DNA from: Akkermansia sp.
GTDB lineage: Bacteria > Verrucomicrobiota > Verrucomicrobiia > Verrucomicrobiales > Akkermansiaceae
DNA: 43,884 nucleotides
Assembly: GCA_022787425.1 (NCBI GenBank)
Contig: JALFWB010000012.1
Coordinates: forward strand, 1-43,884
Direction: 5' to 3'
The notes beneath the pieces are model-generated. The model did no database searches. It worked only from the letters and a program-made list of their open reading frames with translations, and was not told the origin of the DNA. The translations under genes and the position numbers were made by a program. How positions within the stretch are numbered: position 1 is the stretch's first letter; every line of letters begins with the position of its first letter. Below, piece after piece: positions 1-43,884 of the stretch.

Positions 1-629
1 ACATAGCCCGGGGTGAGCTCTGCAAATCCGGGGATATTCAGCGACGGGGAATTATTCATGCTTGGCATGGAGTAATTATATCATAATGGCAATTTTTGTC
101 GAGACTTAATTATAAAGGACGACTTATTGGAAGTCCCCATACTTCATTGTTGACAGTCTGAAGATGCTCCATGCAAACTGCCTCCAACTATGACGGAAGG
201 ACCACGAGAACGAGTTAGAGTTGCACGATCTACCCTCATAATCTCCGGAGTGAAACCCGGACGAGTATCTGAATAATGACCTGAAAGCAGCCCGCAAGTG
301 GGGTACGCCCGCACGGGACAGCAGCAAGCTGAAGGAGCAGGTTGGTGCGCATATGGGAAAAAGAAGCAAGGAGCCGACAACGGTGGCCAAACTATTCCAA
401 CATCTGAAGGTGGCGTATGCCGCTGACGTCAATCATTCCTTGCCGGAGTAATATTTCAGATTATCGCCCTTCCACGGAAGGATCAATAATCGCCTCTGAG
501 GGAGGGCAATGTTTGCTCAAAACGACACTGCGAACGATAGATGCCACATTCTCCCCCTTATCGTCAAGCCAAAAAAGGTAGAGGGGCTGTTTTCTGTAGA
601 AGAGAGGTGCGTGTGGGAGGCTTGACAGG
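1..629. other. gene-poor stretch at left edge
   Basis: No convincing intact gene is seen. The first 120 bases are A/T-rich with two TAATTATA words (73-80 and about 107-114). A small perfect inverted repeat, CCTTCC-AC-GGAAGG, is at 468-481. Apart from the possible remnant at 154-451 I see nothing else that can be named. Confidence 0.5.
154..451 (+). pseudogene. possible frameshifted gene remnant
   Basis: Two short open stretches follow each other in different frames. The first runs from about 154 to a TAA at 274-276 and contains an ATG at 190. The second runs from 254 to a TAA at 449-451 and has no good start of its own. Read together with a frame change near 262-276 they give one plausible hydrophilic, Arg/Lys-rich product (first part ...RSTLIISGVKPGRVSE, second part EYLNNDLKAARKWG...). 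A TGA at 151-153 closes the first frame upstream. I do not recognise the family. The stretch may be the decayed end of a gene or chance open frame; the coherent overlap at the frame change is the only support. Confidence 0.25.
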
Positions 630-21953: not shown

Positions 21954-22190
21954 CTACTTGTCCCCCAGACTGCGGTTAATGAGCGCTACCAGCTTATCTT
22001 CTAATAGGGTAGGCAATTCTTTCTCCAGCCGCTGTACCCTCTTTCTCAGATCGGCGTTCTCGGCTTCTAATTTTGCCAGCCGCTCGGAGGCTTGCTCCAA
22101 GTTGATGATGCGCCGCCATACGCCCCATTCCGGGTTATTCAGTTTCTCCCAAATTTGGCTGATTTGACCCTCTAGCTCCTGATGGTTCAT
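21954..22190 (-). CDS. small coiled-coil protein, partner of GTPase
   Basis: This 78-aa protein has no enzyme motif. Residues 27-60 form a heptad-rich coiled coil (LEQASERLAKLEAENADLRK, then RVQRLEKEL), suggesting an oligomerising or tethering role. Its ATG (22190) overlaps the stop of the 210-aa GTPase gene in an ATGA, so the two are very likely made together and may form a complex. It is the last gene of the island. Family not recognised; the pairing of a small helical protein with a dynamin-like protein recalls CrfC (YjdA)-YjcZ of E. coli only in general layout. Confidence 0.75.
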   Translation of the reverse strand: MNHQELEGQISQIWEKLNNPEWGVWRRIINLEQASERLAKLEAENADLRKRVQRLEKELPTLLEDKLVALINRSLGDK

Positions 22191-22819
22191 CGTATTTGCG
22201 TGTTCGTTAATGCGTGAATTACCTGTTGCGTGATCCTCATCATACTGCAGATGAGGGTCAACGGTGAAGGTACGCGGAAAGGGTGTATGCCCAGCAGGTA
22301 TTGCAAGCGACGGATACCAACGTAGTCGTCCTCATCTTGCCTTCCCTTCTCCCAACGTCGGGCGTTGAAACAGGGTATTTCGTTTCCGAAAAGAATGGGA
22401 TGGAAACCTCGTCGATGCATCTTTGCAATGCTGATGTCCTGAATGGCCCGATTGTTGCGGTCCCGGTCGTTGATTAGAGGAATAATCGGGCGGCGCCCTT
22501 TGCTCCCCATTTTCATGCAGCGTTGCACCTCATCGAGGAGGTTATCCGTTGCTTGTACCTGAGAGAGAAGAAGAATAAACGCATCGGCATCCTGAACCCC
22601 ACTGTATGTCGACGGACAGTCCCCTACACGGGGGGCATTAAAGCCGGGTGTGTCCAGCAAAATGCAGTCTGTTCCGGGGAGTGGGTATTCTTCAACCCTG
22701 GAGGTGGTCGCCGTCCCCCAGCCCGTTTCGGCCCGGAATTGCCCCGAAAGGGCGTTGATCAAGGTGGATTTCCCATCCTGAAAGTCTCCGATGATGGCGA
22801 CCTTAATTTTCATGGACAA
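22187..22819 (-). CDS. stand-alone dynamin-type GTPase domain protein
   Basis: This 210-aa protein is almost only a GTPase domain. The P-loop GDFQDGKST is at 11-19, a Thr-rich switch I follows (TATTS, 37-40), and G3 is DTPGF at 56-60. The expected N/TKxD G4 motif is replaced by NDRDRN near 117-122, so guanine specificity is uncertain. It lacks the helical stalk of the other three GTPases and instead is coupled to the 78-aa coiled-coil gene, as if stalk and head were split. Start is ATG 22819, with an alternative Met two codons later. A 154-bp gap separates it from the 814-aa gene, so a separate promoter is possible. Confidence 0.8.
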   Translation of the reverse strand: MSMKIKVAIIGDFQDGKSTLINALSGQFRAETGWGTATTSRVEEYPLPGTDCILLDTPGFNAPRVGDCPSTYSGVQDADAFILLLSQVQATDNLLDEVQRCMKMGSKGRRPIIPLINDRDRNNRAIQDISIAKMHRRGFHPILFGNEIPCFNARRWEKGRQDEDDYVGIRRLQYLLGIHPFRVPSPLTLICSMMRITQQVIHALTNTQIR

Positions 22820-22973
22820 GGGGCGGTTTATGTTCGAAGCAAAATAGAGTTGCTGGACATCCCGATTCTGCCCCTGAGATGTATACCACCGCAGCTCATT
22901 GATTAGCCCCCATCGTTAGGAAGTAAATGACCAAGCAGCGGCGTATACATTCTCGCGGGCAGAATTCCGCAGT
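22820..22973. other. 154-bp gap inside the GTPase island
   Basis: This gap separates the 814-aa GTPase gene from the 210-aa GTPase gene. It contains two GTATAC words, at about 22884 and 22949, and possible -10-like TATACA. I see no convincing -35/-10 pair, hairpin terminator or small gene. Confidence 0.4.
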
Positions 22974-25418
22974 TTATGAGTGAGAGCTCTCGATCAATTC
23001 GGAAATCCTTTCTTCCAAGAGAGAAGTGGCCTCATGACACTTCTTGATTTGTCTCAAGGACTCCCGTATATGATAGAGCTTATCGTGAGCCTCCGGGGTA
23101 TTTACCATCTTGAGAGCATCCTCAGCAATGCCTATTTGCTTATTGCATTGTTCCAGACCCGCCTCGCATGCTTTTTTGAACTCTGCACCTTTTGTTCTGA
23201 TGATGTCGAAAGGTCCCCCTTTTTCCGACAAAGCTGATTTCAGTGCTCTTTTGTACACCTTGCGAAAGCGTGCATCGTGTTCCGCAATAAAAGCATCAGC
23301 ATATTTGCGATTGTTGGTAAATAGGCGATTAACGCCGAACGTCAGGATTTCCCAGATTACACCCCAGAAATCGTTGGATCCTTCTGTAAGAGCATCCATA
23401 ATAGTTCTTTCGTTTGGTAGCATGTTGTTTATAGCTTCCTCGAATTTGACTCCGGACAGGTGAACTTCTATTTCTGCCATGGCAGAGAGTTCTCCCAGCT
23501 GGGAAAACTCATCCGTCATGGATCTGCGCTCTCTATCGAAGGCTTGAGAGATTTTCTGGAATTCAGGCAATGTTGGCAGTGTTGCATTGATGTTTTCGCG
23601 CAGCGCTTTAAAGCAATCCGTGCAGATTCTAATAAATGCGTCTTCGAATTCCAAGGCAAGCTTTCTCTTATTTCGAAAGATCGCAGTTAGAAAGAAATCG
23701 GGTTTCAGGGAAAGGAAAGTTTCCTGAATTCTGGGTACTGCCTCATTGTCATACAACTTGTCCAGCTCTTTATCGTAATACCTTAATATTTCATTGCAGC
23801 CTGTTTCTATTCTCAGATCCACGTGGTTGCACGATTCCTCCTTCTTATCCTTCAGCTTCTTCAGGTTCTCTCGAACTCTTGTCAGTGCCTTCTTTTTTTT
23901 CTCGATATCCCCTGATATACTCTTGTGGTACGCTGACAAATAGCCTTCCATCGTCTTCAAATCACGGGATACCTTTTGACAGCCCTGATTGAGGAGAATG
24001 CTCTCGAATTTATGTTTTGTAACAAAATCACTTGCACAACGAACAAACCTCGGTACAGCACTGAGTTCGTCTAAAGCCCCGGTAGGCGCGATGGATCCAT
24101 TCTCATCACAAAAGTCTTCCAATTCTTGCTCATCGTCCGTCAATCTCTCGATAAAACGCTTCAGCTGCTTCTTTTGGAGATACCATGTGATATTTTCATC
24201 TGTTGTCTCCCTACCGAGATCATTGAGTTCAATGGATATAGCCCGGCGTGAAGGCTCGGATAGCGATCCATACTGATGTAGGATGGCCTCATAAGCACGA
24301 AGCGCGAGGCCGGCGTGGAGCGCATGAATCTCGGGATCCTCAAAACCGTTTGCACGAAGAATGGGAGCTACAGCCTCTGTCTCGACACGTTTCCACTGTC
24401 TGGAGGGAATTTTCAGGTTGGCCCCGAATATCAGTTTATGCTTTCCGCCCAACGTAACGCACGCTTGCAGAGCCTCAAGATCAGACTGGGTCAGAGCTTT
24501 ATCGCCTCCGAACATATAGAGAACGGCATCCGCCTCTCGGATGCACGTTTTAGCGATTTCTGTGTCCCATGCTGAAATAAACAAACCGGGGCAGTCACAT
24601 ATCGAACAACCGAGTATTCTCAGATTCGCACTGTCAAGGTGGAAATCCAACCCTCCACAGAAAGCGAAAGTGACCTCTTGCGGGCTGAATGCCTCCCTGA
24701 CCTGTTCCGGACTCTTGACACGCTCCCATCGACTCTCCCAATCTTGGGGGTATGATGAGATGACGACGGCATCATCCACCTTCCATTCCTCAGTTCTCTT
24801 GTTGATTCGTTCTGCAAAATCGGGATAGAACGCACAAACAAGGAGGGCAAAACGCATGAGCTCGGTTTTGCTGCTATGGCTGAAATCCGCAGTAGTATCG
24901 TGCATTTCCTCCCACGCGTGTCCGGCAAGTTTCTCGCGATGATCTTTATCGTCCAAATTGACAAGACCCTCCGTGAGGTAGCTGACGTTGGCGGATTCTC
25001 TGTCACATATGTCATAATACACACGAAGCGAGGAGCCAAGAGAGCGAAGAAGTTCTCCTTTTGTTCGCCATGTTACTTCCGCATACTCTCTGCCTCCTTC
25101 CACTTGAGGATGCGCGCTGACGCGACACCCGGAGGTACGGATGCCGCCACCGCCCGGTCCTACCGGGCTGAGTTCACGCCCATCGCACAGATAATTGAAC
25201 AGGGTGGATTTACCACTTTGGAAGGCTCCGATGAGGACGATGGAAAAAACCTCTCTGCGCAGCTTCTCCCTTGTATCTGCCAAGGTATCTTCCCGGGGGC
25301 GCCCCAATGCCTTGGCAGCCTGTTCTACAGGTACCTCTGCCTGATTGATGAGTTCAATGATTTCCCGGAGGAATGTTCTGTATTGTTCGCTCTGTTGGGT
25401 ACTGAAATCCGGAGTCAT
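22974..25418 (-). CDS. large dynamin-like GTPase (814 aa)
   Basis: The P-loop is GAFQSGKSTLFN (64-75) and a G3-like DCPGLF is at 275-280, separated by about 200 residues, much more than the usual 50-80, so the switch I region carries a large insertion. The region after about 420 is mostly helical with strongly charged coiled coils (DIEKKKKALTRVRENLKKLK near 520). Near 700 a hydrophobic helix pair (DFWGVIWEILTFGVNRLF) could act as the membrane-binding paddle. This is the head-stalk-paddle order of bacterial dynamin-like proteins, which bind and remodel membranes in a GTP-dependent way. It starts 15 nt after the 617-aa gene. The G3 Cys in place of Thr is unusual. Confidence 0.82.
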   Translation of the reverse strand: MTPDFSTQQSEQYRTFLREIIELINQAEVPVEQAAKALGRPREDTLADTREKLRREVFSIVLIGAFQSGKSTLFNYLCDGRELSPVGPGGGGIRTSGCRVSAHPQVEGGREYAEVTWRTKGELLRSLGSSLRVYYDICDRESANVSYLTEGLVNLDDKDHREKLAGHAWEEMHDTTADFSHSSKTELMRFALLVCAFYPDFAERINKRTEEWKVDDAVVISSYPQDWESRWERVKSPEQVREAFSPQEVTFAFCGGLDFHLDSANLRILGCSICDCPGLFISAWDTEIAKTCIREADAVLYMFGGDKALTQSDLEALQACVTLGGKHKLIFGANLKIPSRQWKRVETEAVAPILRANGFEDPEIHALHAGLALRAYEAILHQYGSLSEPSRRAISIELNDLGRETTDENITWYLQKKQLKRFIERLTDDEQELEDFCDENGSIAPTGALDELSAVPRFVRCASDFVTKHKFESILLNQGCQKVSRDLKTMEGYLSAYHKSISGDIEKKKKALTRVRENLKKLKDKKEESCNHVDLRIETGCNEILRYYDKELDKLYDNEAVPRIQETFLSLKPDFFLTAIFRNKRKLALEFEDAFIRICTDCFKALRENINATLPTLPEFQKISQAFDRERRSMTDEFSQLGELSAMAEIEVHLSGVKFEEAINNMLPNERTIMDALTEGSNDFWGVIWEILTFGVNRLFTNNRKYADAFIAEHDARFRKVYKRALKSALSEKGGPFDIIRTKGAEFKKACEAGLEQCNKQIGIAEDALKMVNTPEAHDKLYHIRESLRQIKKCHEATSLLEERISELIESSHS

Positions 25419-25433
25419 ATGGGGCGGGTTTGG

Positions 25434-27287
25434 TTAGAACATATTATCAAGTTCCTTGACGATGTCCGACAGAGAACGCTCGTCCTCGGGGCTCAATCGG
25501 TTCTTCTCCGCATTTTCCAATTCAAGTTCTATGTCGGAGAAAAAGGTTGAAGCAGTCAGACGGGAACGCAGGTCATCATTCAAGCGTTTCATTTCTTCCT
25601 CCACGTTTGTTGCAAGGTCTGTTTTTATCTGGCGGGCAGACTCATCCAAGTGCTTTACAGCGATGTTTTTGGCCAACGCTGCCACCAAGTTAGCAGGCAT
25701 CAACGGGAAGGAGCCGAACAGGTAACGTAAAGGTAAATCGATAAAAAACGGTAGAGGTGACAGAAATTCAGTCAGCGCGTAATCCCCGACGATAATGGCC
25801 CACGAAGGGATCTTGGATAGGAAGCCGGCATGGAATTCAATGGAATTCTGAGCCATGTCTCGGATAGAAAGATCTAAGTCCTCTCCGAAACGCCGCGTAG
25901 CTTCGTGGATATCCCGCCCTAAATCGATTTTAAGCAGTTGCACCGTATTACCGAGTTCGCCGGGCAGGCTCTCGTTCCATGCTTTGAGCGTGTCAATGAC
26001 CTGTTGGCTGGAGGTCAGCAGATTCAACTCACTCTTTTTTGTTCGGATAACATTGTCGATCTCAGCCGCAAGTTTGCGTTGAAAATTGATCTGGATGGCG
26101 TGGATATGGTCCATCATGATTTCTGACTTGCGGTGGAATTCGAACCGTAACGTTCGGAGTTGTTTCTGCAATGCCTCCACCTGTTCTGCATTGGAGTGGC
26201 TGACGTCCAACCTTGCCTGTGCACGCATTCGAAGTTGCTCGCTCAGGGGCCTGAGATCCCGAAGTATCTTGGCTGCGTGACCGGTTGCAACATGGTCGCG
26301 GAAGAATGTGCTCAATTCCATGCCGAGGTCATCGCCGTCCGTAGTTTCCGGTGATGCTGTCTCCTTCTTCTCCGTCTTGGGAGTTGGATCGAACCACCCC
26401 TCCACGCCGAGGCCTCCGACTTCTTTAGCTTTCGTTGGTGATGTCTCCTTCTTTCTTGTTTTGGGAGTTGTGTCGAACCACCCCACGAAACCATCGGATT
26501 TGTCGGGAGTGACGGAGACGGGGGAATCATCAATGGATACCGCAGATGAGGAGTTGCGAATATCGTAAGGGGAACAGGAGGCTGTAATTCCTGCCTGAGC
26601 CAGTGCTGCACGTATCTCCCGACATATATTCTTCAGTTGAGCGGGGCTTTGCGTGTCATCGTGAGTTACGACAACAAAAACGGGAATCTTCTCGAGTTGC
26701 ATACCGCACATAGATGCCAGCAACTCTACCTCACGGCGGGCAAGAGTCTTTCCTCGTACAACATACAACAGCAAATCGGCATCCCGAGCCTCAGCCATGG
26801 TACCGACGAGGATTTCCTGATTCGGCGTATTCATTCCCGGAGTGTCCACCAGACAGATGTTATCCGCCAGAATGCCGGGCAGTGTCAACACAGCGCGGCT
26901 GTATTTCTTGGCCTTCTCGGCACGGGCTGAAGCTGTTCCGGCCGTGATCAGAGAAGCAAGAGTACATTCATCGAATGTCTCTGTCTCCTGAACCAGCGTT
27001 TCACGGCCGGTGGATGGGTTGCGCTTCCAGAGTTGCAGCCGGCGGGGGCCGTTTGCAAGTTGGGTGGGGACTGCAGTGCATTCACTGTAGTCTACAGGCA
27101 GGAGAGGTTCCTTCAAAAACAACTGATTCAGAATCGTGGATTTGCCGGCCTTGAAGTCGCCCAGTACGGTCACCTTCATCAGGCTTTTCTGAGACCTCAT
27201 CTGTAGTTCCCGGAGGGCTGCCTCCTGCTCGGGGGCGCAGAGGCGGGCGATGCTGATGTGTTTGCTGATAAGCTCGTTAATGTCCAT
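25434..27287 (-). CDS. dynamin-like GTPase (617 aa) with internal duplicated motif
   Basis: Starting at ATG 27287, the P-loop is GDFKAGKST (43-51), switch I Thr in SECTAVPTQ, G3 VDTPGMN (147-153) and G4-like VVTHDD (206-211). Between the GTPase head and the helical stalk lies a disordered linker with two copies of a 28-residue unit beginning GWFDTTPKTRKKE (269) and GWFDPTPKTEKKE (297). The C-terminal half has coiled coils and a hydrophobic stretch (WAIIVGDYALTEFLSPLPFF and the following residues) suited to membrane insertion. An upstream in-frame start at 27407 lies inside the previous gene and gives a non-conserved-looking extension. It follows the 760-aa gene by 37 nt. Confidence 0.82.
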   Translation of the reverse strand: MDINELISKHISIARLCAPEQEAALRELQMRSQKSLMKVTVLGDFKAGKSTILNQLFLKEPLLPVDYSECTAVPTQLANGPRRLQLWKRNPSTGRETLVQETETFDECTLASLITAGTASARAEKAKKYSRAVLTLPGILADNICLVDTPGMNTPNQEILVGTMAEARDADLLLYVVRGKTLARREVELLASMCGMQLEKIPVFVVVTHDDTQSPAQLKNICREIRAALAQAGITASCSPYDIRNSSSAVSIDDSPVSVTPDKSDGFVGWFDTTPKTRKKETSPTKAKEVGGLGVEGWFDPTPKTEKKETASPETTDGDDLGMELSTFFRDHVATGHAAKILRDLRPLSEQLRMRAQARLDVSHSNAEQVEALQKQLRTLRFEFHRKSEIMMDHIHAIQINFQRKLAAEIDNVIRTKKSELNLLTSSQQVIDTLKAWNESLPGELGNTVQLLKIDLGRDIHEATRRFGEDLDLSIRDMAQNSIEFHAGFLSKIPSWAIIVGDYALTEFLSPLPFFIDLPLRYLFGSFPLMPANLVAALAKNIAVKHLDESARQIKTDLATNVEEEMKRLNDDLRSRLTASTFFSDIELELENAEKNRLSPEDERSLSDIVKELDNMF

Positions 27288-27324
27288 GGTATGGAGATAG
27301 GGGTAAAATGGGAAATAATGGTAA

Positions 27325-29607
27325 TCAGTTGAGTGAGTTCGCGAGGATTGTGAGTAGGTTACGGAAATCCTCTGCCTCCTTTGCTGCGGACAGCAGGCTT
27401 GCTGCATCCTGCGCCAAGATGGTACTCTTATAGAGTGCCAAACCTCTCTTCCATCCTTTTTCGCAGTGTGCCTGCGTAGCCAACGTCTGGCTGGCTTGGG
27501 ACAGGAAGTCGTCGACCATCATCTGTAGCTGGGATGCGTGTGCTCCGAGGACGCAGTGAAGAAGTTGAAGAGAAGTTCCCGTGACAAATCGGAGGAATTG
27601 GGCTTGCTCCTCCGCCGTATCCCCGAAACTGGGGAACCTAGCCCTTCCCAACCATGCGGAGGCCTGGGTTCCCTGCTCCGTGCTATCGAGCAAGGATTTG
27701 CAGCGTTTAACCATCTGCTGGCGACGTGCAGCACTCCAGCGGAGGTGATCCAAGAGGTTCAGGCAGGGACGCATTTCATAACGCATCACGTAGCCCATGG
27801 CGGCATTCAGTGTCGCAAATTCCTTGAGACCCTCCGCAATTTTTCTCACGGAATCATCAGAGTCTCGCTGGTTGTCAGCCGATTCCGCAAGTTTGGCTTG
27901 CAGAGCGTTCAACCGATCGCGGTCGGATGTGCCGGGAAGAAGTGCTGAGGCCGTCTCAGCCCCCATTGCATCGATAATGACCTGAAGTACCTGTGTTTGG
28001 ATAGCCGGACTCAGTGTCTCCACGGTTTGAGTCAGTTTTGTTATCCTGTCCGTCATTTCTTTAGCCAGTTTGGGCATTATCTCTTTAACCGGATCCTTAC
28101 CTTGTCGGCTGTACTGCTCACATATCTCCTCGTCGGCATTCTCCTTGATCCAACCTAGCATTTCTTCATTCGTAACTTGCAAAATGTTCTGGATCTGATC
28201 GTGGACAGCAGACAGCTCCGGTAAATTGAAACTCTCTGCCAACCTGCCCAATCCATCGACCAGCTTGCGGAAGAATGTATCTTGGAACCAGTCTTCGTAC
28301 TTATTGTTCATCTGTTGCTCGATGGCCGACGGAAGGGGGGGCGATTGTCGAGATAAATCATCAAAGATGTTCAAGCGTACGCGACTTTGCAGGGACTTGA
28401 ATTCCTGTTCAAGAGACGAAATAAGGTTATCGTCCTGCTCCGGAAGATGAGTGGCGATGAATCCGTTGAGCTCCTTGAGGAAATCTGCAACGGCTCCTTC
28501 TTTCATAACATCACAGGGACCGTAGATCCTGCGGAAGATGTTGTATTTACTCATCTTCTCGATATGGATATCGGCGGCAGAATGATCCGGATCGGAGCCT
28601 TTGTTCCAATTGACGAAGTATACAGTCCTTTCTCGAAGGGGGGCGTCCCGGTCCGCTTTTTTCAGATCACTGATGAAGCGTGCCAACGATACAGTTGGAT
28701 CCGGGCGGTTATCAGGGCGGTGCGCCACAACGAGAATATCGGCCTCCTCCATGATTGTTCGATAGGTCAAATGACGGGCGTTCCGATTCGGGTCATCTAC
28801 GCCCGGCGTATCGCACAAGCGCAGAGCCGCGCAGCCGTTTTCGAATTTAGAGTGTATGGTTACTTTCCTGATCAGGCACTGCTCCTCGCTGACATTGCCC
28901 GATGTTTTCGTCTTGTGACTGATGAAGTGGTGCAGTTCGCTGAGAGGTTTCCTGTCATCTCTCCTCCCGAGTTTATCCCCGGAACTGTAGAGGCATGTCT
29001 GGATGGCTCGAAGCTGAACCAAGGCCGATTCATACGAGAGAATGGATTGGGGATCCAAGGCATCCCTGTTCGGAATCCTGCTGCTCAGGAACGCTTCCAG
29101 GTCGGCCGGAGTGTCCTCGGTCAGGGATAATTTGTTGCCCTGCCACGCATCAGCCGGAGCATCATGCAGGTATCCCCACAGACTTGCCATGACGTTGTAC
29201 AGCTCCTCTTTGCTGTAATACTCAACATCAAACCAGCCGTGCTCGGCTTCTGTGTACAGAATATCACTGCTGACGGATGTGCATCGCTCCTGCGCTGTGG
29301 GCAAGTCAATGCCTGTCAGCTGCTTGAGCATAGTGGATTTGCCGGATTTCTCCATGCCGGCAATACATATCGTCACCATCCCGTTTTCGAAAAGACGACG
29401 CTTGCGGTTGACTCGCTCTGCAAACAGTCGCAGGTCTGTCATCAAGGCCCCCAGCTCCTTCGGCTTGGTGAAGTTGAGAGGGGAAGAAGCCACTGCTGCC
29501 ATAGCATCGCTCATGGCCTTAATTTTCTCGGAAAGCCTAGCGAGGCCCTCAGCACGTTGCTGTCGCTTTTCAATAATTCCTGTTTGAAGCATGGATTCGG
29601 TTTGCAT
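27325..29607 (-). CDS. dynamin-like GTPase (760 aa), first gene of the operon
   Basis: Starting at ATG 29607, the P-loop is GMEKSGKST (84-92), G3 CDTPGVDD (265-272) and G4 NKGSD (335-339). As in the 814-aa protein, the P-loop and G3 are far apart (about 175 residues). The rest is helical, without an obvious transmembrane helix but with amphipathic helices. An in-frame ATG at 29646 is rejected because it lies upstream of the predicted -10 box (29617-29622). The ATG is 9 nt after the -10 box, so the mRNA would be nearly leaderless. Transcription appears to depend on the invertible element at 29617-29783. LeoA/BDLP-type proteins are the closest known class by architecture. Confidence 0.82.
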   Translation of the reverse strand: MQTESMLQTGIIEKRQQRAEGLARLSEKIKAMSDAMAAVASSPLNFTKPKELGALMTDLRLFAERVNRKRRLFENGMVTICIAGMEKSGKSTMLKQLTGIDLPTAQERCTSVSSDILYTEAEHGWFDVEYYSKEELYNVMASLWGYLHDAPADAWQGNKLSLTEDTPADLEAFLSSRIPNRDALDPQSILSYESALVQLRAIQTCLYSSGDKLGRRDDRKPLSELHHFISHKTKTSGNVSEEQCLIRKVTIHSKFENGCAALRLCDTPGVDDPNRNARHLTYRTIMEEADILVVAHRPDNRPDPTVSLARFISDLKKADRDAPLRERTVYFVNWNKGSDPDHSAADIHIEKMSKYNIFRRIYGPCDVMKEGAVADFLKELNGFIATHLPEQDDNLISSLEQEFKSLQSRVRLNIFDDLSRQSPPLPSAIEQQMNNKYEDWFQDTFFRKLVDGLGRLAESFNLPELSAVHDQIQNILQVTNEEMLGWIKENADEEICEQYSRQGKDPVKEIMPKLAKEMTDRITKLTQTVETLSPAIQTQVLQVIIDAMGAETASALLPGTSDRDRLNALQAKLAESADNQRDSDDSVRKIAEGLKEFATLNAAMGYVMRYEMRPCLNLLDHLRWSAARRQQMVKRCKSLLDSTEQGTQASAWLGRARFPSFGDTAEEQAQFLRFVTGTSLQLLHCVLGAHASQLQMMVDDFLSQASQTLATQAHCEKGWKRGLALYKSTILAQDAASLLSAAKEAEDFRNLLTILANSLN

Positions 29608-29616
29608 CGTGAGGAC

Positions 29617-29622
29617 ACTATA
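29617..29622 (-). promoter_or_regulatory. -10 half of the split dynamin-operon promoter
   Basis: On the minus strand TATAGT (29622-29617) lies 2 bp downstream of the near 13-bp site and 9 nt before the ATG at 29607. In the orientation written, the 6 bases 17-18 bp upstream are G-rich and match no -35 consensus, so the promoter appears inactive. Confidence 0.7.
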
Positions 29623-29624
29623 CA

Positions 29625-29783
29625 GCATTTTGAATGCACACCCCACCTTACCCCTTGATTATCAACGTGTTGGGAAAAGAAGGTCAGCGAGAAGAAATTT
29701 TATCGCTCCTTTGTCAAGACAAAGAGGCCCGAGAAAAAACAAGAAAAAAACGTTTTCCGGCTTGACTACAGCATTCAAAATGC
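29625..29783. repeat. putative invertible promoter element (copy D), OFF orientation
   Basis: Two 13-bp sites, GCATTTTGAATGC (29625-29637) and GCATTCAAAATGC (29771-29783), are exact reverse complements. Each is itself a palindrome with arms GCATT/AATGC and a 3-nt core. Inside, next to the far site, TTGACT (29762-29767) points away from the operon. Inversion would place TTGACT 18 bp from TATAGT. A third palindrome, TTGATTATCAA (29655-29665), lies 17 bp from the near site, exactly as in the second copy. Confidence 0.75.
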
Positions 29784-29844
29784 AGAGGGTACGAGGTAGT
29801 TGTGCCCTGCACTCAGAAACATTCGTTGGGGGGTGTTTGGCTTT

Positions 29845-29884
29845 GTGTACTCGCCTCCCCGTTTTGTGTACCTAAAACGTGTAC
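29845..29884. repeat. right GTGTAC triplet module
   Basis: GTGTAC at 29845, 29866 and 29879 mirrors the left module at 21790-21830 in order and spacing. The two modules and their neighbouring hairpins thus form imperfect inverted repeats around the dynamin island. Confidence 0.55.
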
Positions 29885-29903
29885 CGATGTATGCAGGGCC
29901 GGG

Positions 29904-29937
29904 CAAAACGAAGACCCCACGGGGATAATCCGTGGGG
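29904..29937 (-). terminator. terminator of tRNA-Ser(GCT), repeated hairpin copy 2
   Basis: CCCCACGG (29915-29922) pairs with CCGTGGGG (29930-29937). On the minus strand it is followed by TCTTCGTTTT. It lies just after the 3' end of tRNA-Ser(GCT). Confidence 0.8.
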
Positions 29938-29954
29938 CACAAGCATTAATCTGA

Positions 29955-30045
29955 CGGAGCGGGGGGGATTCGAACCCCCGGTACGGGTTTATGCCCGTAC
30001 GACCATTTAGCAAACGGTTGCTTTCAGCCTCTCAGCCACCGCTCC
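29955..30045 (-). tRNA. tRNA-Ser (GCT)
   Basis: Read on the minus strand: acceptor GGAGCGG/CCGCTCC, anticodon GCT in the loop TTGCTAA, long variable arm with a perfect stem (GTACGGG/CCCGTAC), T-arm GGGGGTTCGAATCCCCC and discriminator G. CCA is not encoded. Confidence 0.95.
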
Positions 30046-30071
30046 ATGGGCACCATGAGGTGTGTGGGGAG

Positions 30072-43590: not shown

Positions 43591-43749
43591 GCATTCTTAA
43601 TGCTGTGTCAAGCAGGAAAGTTGTATTTTCTTAAAAAAATCTCATTCTTTTAATGTGATCCTACCTGACACTTTCAACCTCTCTGTACCCTGAATCCGTC
43701 GTAAATCATTGATTGTCAATAACTTACATAGGGTGTGCATTAAGAATGC
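43591..43749. repeat. putative invertible promoter element (copy E), OFF orientation
   Basis: Two 13-bp sites, GCATTCTTAATGC (43591-43603) and GCATTAAGAATGC (43737-43749), are exact reverse complements, again with GCATT/AATGC arms, and start 146 bp apart as in copy D. TTGACA lies inside next to the far site on the minus strand (43611-43606), pointing away from the downstream gene. TTGATTGTCAA (43709-43719) lies 17 bp from the near site. Confidence 0.75.
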
Positions 43750-43751
43750 TG

Positions 43752-43757
43752 TATGCT
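43752..43757 (+). promoter_or_regulatory. -10 half of the split promoter of the right-edge gene
   Basis: TATGCT (43752-43757) lies 2 bp outside the near 13-bp site. As written, no -35 box is 17 bp upstream (TAGGGT). After inversion TTGACA would lie exactly 17 bp upstream. The leader to ATG 43834 would be about 70 nt. Confidence 0.55.
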
Positions 43758-43833: not shown

Positions 43834-43884
43834 ATGAAACGAACATTGTTCAACACCATGATGGGCTGCCTTGCGGCCCTGTCC
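43834..43884 (+). CDS. start of a secreted-protein gene, cut by window edge
   Basis: Only 17 codons are visible: MKRTLFNTMMGCLAALS, the basic start and hydrophobic core of a signal peptide. The product is unknown. It is the first gene downstream of the invertible element at 43591-43749, so its expression may be phase variable. Confidence 0.6.
   Translation, partial: MKRTLFNTMMGCLAALS

Follow-up and report, generated by a model that had tools for sequence, protein, structure and literature searches.

How could an operon be transcribed when a -10 hexamer stands just in front of its first gene and, as assembled, no -35 hexamer accompanies it at the right distance? The question is raised by a stretch of DNA from Akkermansia sp. 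(assembly GCA_022787425.1, contig JALFWB010000012.1, positions 1 to 43,884; this whole stretch of 43,884 nucleotides is called the window below), where a minus-strand operon of dynamin-like genes is preceded by a 159-bp element (29625-29783) bounded by inverted 13-bp sites. We propose that this element is very probably an invertible half-promoter. Its inversion by a tyrosine recombinase would join a -35 hexamer carried inside the segment to a -10 hexamer left in the chromosome, and would thereby likely switch on the dynamin operon.

The initial annotation had placed two exact inverted 13-bp sites around a segment with TTGACT next to the far site, pointing away from the operon, and TATAGT just outside the near site. 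The sites were confirmed base for base, and the positions, strands and offsets of both hexamers all proved correct (Table 1). Each 13-mer is near-palindromic in a 5-3-5 arrangement, so that the inverted sense of the pair rests on the core. Among the hexamers 16-18 bp from TATAGT, the best has 4 mismatches to TTGACA in the assembled orientation versus 1 in the flipped one, which bears out the claim that no properly spaced -35 exists as written. Turning the segment in silico gave TTGACT, 18 bp and TATAGT on the minus strand, with the ATG of the operon (29605-29607) 9 nt past TATAGT, as had been foreseen. The element shares with invertons that it is a short segment with exact inverted repeats adjoining a gene, and that its orientation would decide whether a promoter faces that gene.

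In the proposed mechanism, a tyrosine recombinase would exchange strands within a core of 3-5 bp. The assembled form, with no -35 for TATAGT, would be the OFF state, and one inversion would convert it to the ON state, TTGACT-18-TATAGT, whose transcript should start a few nucleotides before the ATG. Because the recombination site would itself be the promoter spacer, RNA polymerase and the recombinase would have to vie for one stretch of DNA. Such a switch would probably make a Leo-like dynamin system phase-variable.

The build is repeated throughout the genome. The window holds four matches to the site pattern GCATTNNNAATGC, with 0.09 expected and 0 of 100 shuffles reaching four; the 2.5-Mb genome holds 68, and the reversed pattern has 0. 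Twenty-seven close site pairs lie 142-189 bp apart, of which 24 are exact inverted 13-mers. The 3-bp core is shared within 24 of the 27 pairs, compared with a mean of 2.9 and a maximum of 10 in 10,000 rounds of shuffled partners, and 14 different cores occur across them (strand-blind count). A wider pattern, GCATN5ATGC, yielded at least 10 further exact pairs with other 5-bp cores, which indicates that the arms are GCAT/ATGC and that the core extends up to 5 bp; the total of exact inverted pairs is thus at least 34 (24 plus at least 10). Same-core segments exceeded 90% body identity in 2/23 pairs versus 1/253 different-core pairs, numbers too small for a conclusion. The promoter counts given below leave out three core-mismatched pairs of this genome and three of a sister species (G073), and 14 single sites of this genome lie outside the analysis.

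All offsets were scanned at both ends of the 24 exact pairs, with no end chosen beforehand. In all 24 pairs, at least one end has TANNNT at a distance of exactly 2 bp on its outer side (29 of 48 ends); any other offset from 0 to 24 gives it in only 0-3 of the 48 ends. On the inner side, a gap of 3 or 4 bp separates TTGAC from the site in 20 of 48 ends, and the motif is absent from every other gap up to 29. Twenty of the 24 pairs accordingly have a TTGACN hexamer at one end, 2-3 bp inside the site; the other four carry TTGCTA (three) or TTGCAT (one). With both hexamers at fixed offsets, the site plus 4-5 bp makes a promoter spacer of 17-18 bp. The sister species has the outer TANNNT at offset 2 in 15/15 exact pairs (other offsets, 0-2 of 30 ends) and TTGAC at the inner edge in 12/30 ends. 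The 10 other-core pairs, read afterwards as a fair test, include 8 with a -35 (≤1 mismatch) and 8 with an outer -10, and both an inner -35 (TTGAC or ≤1 mismatch) and an outer TANNNT are present in 28/34 pairs. At the -10 ends, a -35 with ≤1 mismatch was found in the ON placement at 25/29 ends in this genome and 14/17 in the sister species, with spacers of 17 or 18, versus 0/29 and 0/17 in the OFF placement, one locus (L027) being counted here in its first orientation, set by the -35 rule. The recurrence of the outer -10 at one offset across pairs argues for a genome-wide design and not a one-off, and supports the suggestion of the initial annotation that the recombination site is the promoter spacer. 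A start codon followed by at least 60 open codons lies 4-14 nt past the -10 at 6/29 of the -10 ends in this genome and 9/17 in the sister species, and at 0/19 and 1/13 of the ends that have no -10; such closeness is suggestive of very short leaders.

The segment body has a constant mark of its own. The palindrome TTGANNNTCAA (≤1 mismatch, first 50 nt) is present at the end opposite the -35 in 38/39 exact pairs of this genome and the sister species, and the other end has it in 0/39; before L027 was re-oriented, these counts were 37/39 and 1/39. It lies either 17-18 or 25-28 bp inside that end. The two positions are about one helix turn apart, which, we would guess, might fit a protein that has to face the site.

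Similar copies in opposite orientation lend comparative support to inversion. Between C9:191 and C9:15942, body identity is 97% and one flank is common to both (97.9% identity over 190 bp, up to the contig ends); the -35 end faces this flank in one copy and away from it in the other. In one metagenome-assembled genome (SIG73), the bodies of L080 and L081 lie on opposite strands, with 89% identity over 164 bp, and both loci adjoin a similar recombinase start region. Between C14:63671 of this genome and C18:7670 of the sister species, a flank is 95% identical over 1500 bp and meets the opposite -35 end; body, core and far flank differ. We infer inversion from this comparison of similar copies and not from reads. 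Neither the flipped junction of the window locus nor a general ON junction had a match in viral_contigs (0 each), and the DNA of 29560-29960 gave no match at E ≤ 0.001 among 38 relatives.

The genome also encodes candidate enzymes. Eight of its frames match tyrosine recombinases: two are Xer-like, one is 427 aa long, one is a short frame akin to the latter, and four are related proteins of ~340 aa with a weak resemblance to XerD of solved structure. No enzyme of the kind that marks Mpi-type systems was found, the serine recombinase family PF00239 having 0 matches at E ≤ 0.001 in this genome. Fifteen genes of the ~340-aa XerD-like family adjoin an exact inverted site pair, namely 13 of 36 loci (L075-L110; L090 and L083 were each found in only one of two site-pair scans) together with C13 and C46 of this genome. 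The site arms beside these genes track the recombinase clade without conflict, being GCAT in Akkermansia-like genomes, GGAT at two A. muciniphila-type loci and GTAT at five Opitutales loci. In this genome, the C13 and C46 genes directly adjoin their pair (L069 793-976 and L068 805-976, respectively), and C33 and C42 have no adjoining exact inverted site pair. The pairs beside C13 and C46 carry no outer -10 at offset 2 on the recombinase-gene side; at C13 the -10 is on the side away from the gene. All four paralogues (L069, L068, L071 and L066) have Asp in place of the His that XerD has in the HxxR motif of tyrosine recombinases. The XerD-like tyrosine recombinases are the predicted recombinases of these switches. 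At the five Opitutales loci (L105, L107, L108, L109 and L110), genes of the same recombinase family adjoin GTATTNNNAATAC pairs, whose arms represent a third type, found outside Akkermansia.

As assembled, 15 of the 24 exact pairs are OFF, the window switch included, 4 are ON, and the remaining 5 carry two -10 hexamers, one at each end; L027 was oriented here by its palindrome instead of the -35 rule, an earlier tally being 14 OFF, 5 ON and 5 both. In three of the five double -10 switches (L036, L043 and L047), the genes at the two ends belong to one Pfam family: PEP-CTERM proteins at C4:187776, polysaccharide pyruvyl transferases at C20:20904 and DUF6056 proteins at C44:15387. Such switches are predicted to be either-or selectors between two divergent genes. 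Other predicted targets are a SNF2 helicase, a pyruvyl transferase, an FRG protein, acyltransferases, a glycosyltransferase and PEP-CTERM proteins. Overall, 17 of the 24 open reading frames (ORFs) scanned at -10 ends had a Pfam match.

Several observations weigh against this reading. Five of 15 ORFs at ends lacking a -10 also match Pfam, or 7/17 when the malate dehydrogenase and UvrB genes of the window are added, so these ends, too, often face genes. Unlike cores are seen in three of the 27 close pairs; two of these (L041 and L050) have no outer -10, and the three unlike-core pairs of the sister species all keep theirs. The two C9 copies differ in their cores and in the other flank, and of three loci shared with the sister species one is opposite and two are in the same orientation, with body and core differing in all. 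In A. muciniphila, sampled as 26 exact pairs of <450 bp of strain CSUN-56 among the matches listed, the outer -10 is weak: TANNNT is at offset 2 in 7/52 ends and in ≤3 elsewhere, and a -10 within 2 mismatches of TATAAT is at offset 2 in 5/26 pairs and in up to 6 elsewhere. (In A. glycaniphila, 5 of the 6 pairs among the matches listed were read.) Dynamin homologues from ten further genomes of the genus have no such site pair in the upstream stretch examined; the switch is therefore not a conserved feature of the operon. The acting recombinase could also be C33, C42, an Xer-like protein or another tyrosine recombinase. Within the window body, a 9/12 sigma-70 match in the assembled orientation (29687-29658, minus strand) could permit some OFF-state transcription. 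Finally, the orientation at the window locus is known from one assembly only.

Of the alternative explanations, the one that survives best is compatible with an invertible half-promoter: the mechanism would be as described, and the window copy would be a relic now locked OFF. The single-assembly orientation would suit it, as would the absence of the -10 from two core-mismatched pairs, out of three in this genome (L041 1501, L048 1501 and L050 1501), which suggests that relics may exist; L041 and L050 are possible dead switches. The window pair, however, consists of perfect 13-bp inverses and retains its -35, -10 and palindrome, and the candidate recombinase family is represented in the genome by four open reading frames. 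We therefore regard a locked window copy as unlikely.

It is highly improbable that the element is a conventional inverton with a complete promoter inside the segment, the edge hexamers being incidental. Published accounts describe promoters embedded in invertons, and the available excerpts of PMC11892184 treat the promoter of A. muciniphila invertons in this way and not as split; the 9/12 match in the window body would also agree. Across the 24 bodies, however, the best internal TTGACA-16..18-TATAAT has a mean of 3.9 mismatches, no better than the 3.6 of shuffled bodies, whereas the composite across the site has 2.6, and the edge hexamers keep to fixed offsets. Least credible of all is that the 13-bp palindromes are paired transcription-factor operators, as for a looping repressor, with nothing inverting, since, although each site is a 5-3-5 palindrome like dimer-bound operators and would, in the ON form, separate the -35 from the -10, operators need no core that is equal within a pair, different between pairs and inverted (24/27 versus 2.9 shuffled), and would explain neither related segments in opposite orientation nor arms that track the recombinase clade. 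Both the operator-pair and the whole-promoter-inside readings were set aside on the core agreement, the fixed hexamer offsets and body promoters no better than shuffled. The fixed edge hexamers and the poor body promoters together indicate that the segment holds the -35, the chromosome the -10, and that the site is the spacer.

The genes put under the window switch are dynamin-like, as the initial annotation had it, the first having a Dynamin_N match. Three dynamin-like genes and a small GTPase gene stand in a row at 22187-29607, and three of the four are Leo-like: LeoA/LeoBC profiles of a defence library match the later three operon genes and not the first. The operon may encode a membrane or phage-defence system. 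The first gene has homologues in 10/75 further genomes of the genus (25-39% identity), and in three cases the match covers only part of the protein. A terminator-like stem (29938-29914) lies between the switch and a tRNA-Ser gene, where one such stem is expected by chance. A second switch of the same build, formed by the other two of the four site matches, stands near the end of the window; the first residues of the gene predicted under it resemble, by eye, an ORF beside locus L051. In a separate observation among the matches listed, G023:C26:40632-50047 and G023:C41:9714-15282 are site clusters of ~9 and ~6 kb (five sites, one shared core, mixed orientation) and are possible multi-site shufflons.

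Table 1. Features of the two predicted switches and of the dynamin operon in window coordinates.
Feature	Position	Strand	Remark
Left recombination site	29625..29637	+	GCATTTTGAATGC; arms GCAT/ATGC, core TTTGA
Right recombination site	29771..29783	-	exact reverse complement of left site
Predicted invertible body	29638..29770	.	133 bp between sites
-35 hexamer TTGACT	29762..29767	+	inside segment, 3 bp from right site, directed away from operon (OFF)
-10 hexamer TATAGT	29617..29622	-	chromosomal, 2 bp outside left site
Conserved palindrome	29655..29665	.	TTGATTATCAA; 17 bp inside end opposite -35
First operon gene, dynamin-like GTPase	27325..29607	-	760 aa; Dynamin_N, 45.7 bits
Second dynamin-like gene	25434..27407	-	LeoA/LeoBC-like
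Third dynamin-like gene	22974..25418	-	LeoA/LeoBC-like
Small GTPase gene	22187..22819	-	probable last operon gene
tRNA-Ser gene	29953-30046		
Second switch	43591-43749		same build, OFF as assembled; sites 43591-43603 and 43737-43749
Second switch, -35 hexamer TTGACA	43606-43611	-	
Second switch, -10 hexamer TATGCT	43752-43757	+	
Second switch, palindrome	43709-43719		
Start of gene predicted under second switch	43834..43884	+	cut by contig end

Invertons of A. muciniphila were reportedly known already from Jiang et al. 2019, as cited by others. The ON/OFF control by promoter inversion proposed here resembles fimS and Hin, which have the whole promoter within the segment. As in Bacteroides fragilis Mpi, one recombinase class would serve many promoter switches across the chromosome; Mpi, however, is a serine recombinase and its segments contain the whole promoter, unlike in this genome, where no PF00239 match was found. 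In the available excerpts, the mpl system of Mycoplasma penetrans likewise has many genes, each with a small invertible promoter, and Xer1-like recombinases are suspected there (PMC2268961). The minicircle junction of IS2, of the IS3 family, offers a parallel for the split, as recombination there joins a -35 and a -10 from two DNA ends with a mandatory 17 bp spacer; in contrast to the reversible inversion proposed here, it involves a transposase and circle formation (PMC3219604, in excerpt).

The closest likeness is to A. muciniphila itself. According to the portions of PMC11892184 and PMC13343947 at hand, its invertons with CGGATT..AATCCG flip, as judged by reads and PCR digest, and the former reports PEP-CTERM genes enriched near A. 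muciniphila invertons. They likewise have 13-bp sites with arm and 3-bp core matching within the pair (PMC11892184 group 138; PMC13343947 cps1). In strain CSUN-56, TTGACN lies 2-3 bp inside one end of 22/26 exact pairs, and related tyrosine recombinases are present in A. muciniphila. In contrast, the arms are GCATT..AATGC here and GGATT..AATCC there, which places the present sites outside that group by arm sequence, and the spacing there is longer, 148-408 bp. From site layout and recombinase kinship, we infer that the A. muciniphila invertons are homologous to these switches. Within the available excerpts of the literature on Akkermansia invertons and split promoters (PMC13343947, PMC8278651 and PMC11892184 included; the motif of Jiang et al. 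2019 was not part of the comparison), we found no promoter split by a recombination site with a chromosomal -10 at tens of loci. Invertible promoters are already known, Akkermansia included; what appears to be new here is a predicted promoter split by the site, with its -10 left in the chromosome.

A broader proposal, on which we are evenly divided, is that these elements form a genome-wide switchboard. One recombinase family would flip more than 30 half-promoters, in each of which the site would be the spacer contested by polymerase and recombinase; the 3-5 bp core would be a private address for each pair, and copies with two -10 hexamers would choose between two divergent related genes. If true, bare sequence would predict the ON/OFF state and transcription start of each switch, candidate recombinases could be named together with their arm preference, and the private cores would suggest how many similar switches avoid cross-reaction. 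Searches for whole promoters inside invertible segments may miss switches of this kind. The predicted targets, comprising PEP-CTERM and lipoprotein-like surface proteins, glycan enzymes, a SNF2 helicase, an FRG protein and the Leo-like dynamins, suggest that the switches would serve bet-hedging at the cell surface and possibly phage defence too.

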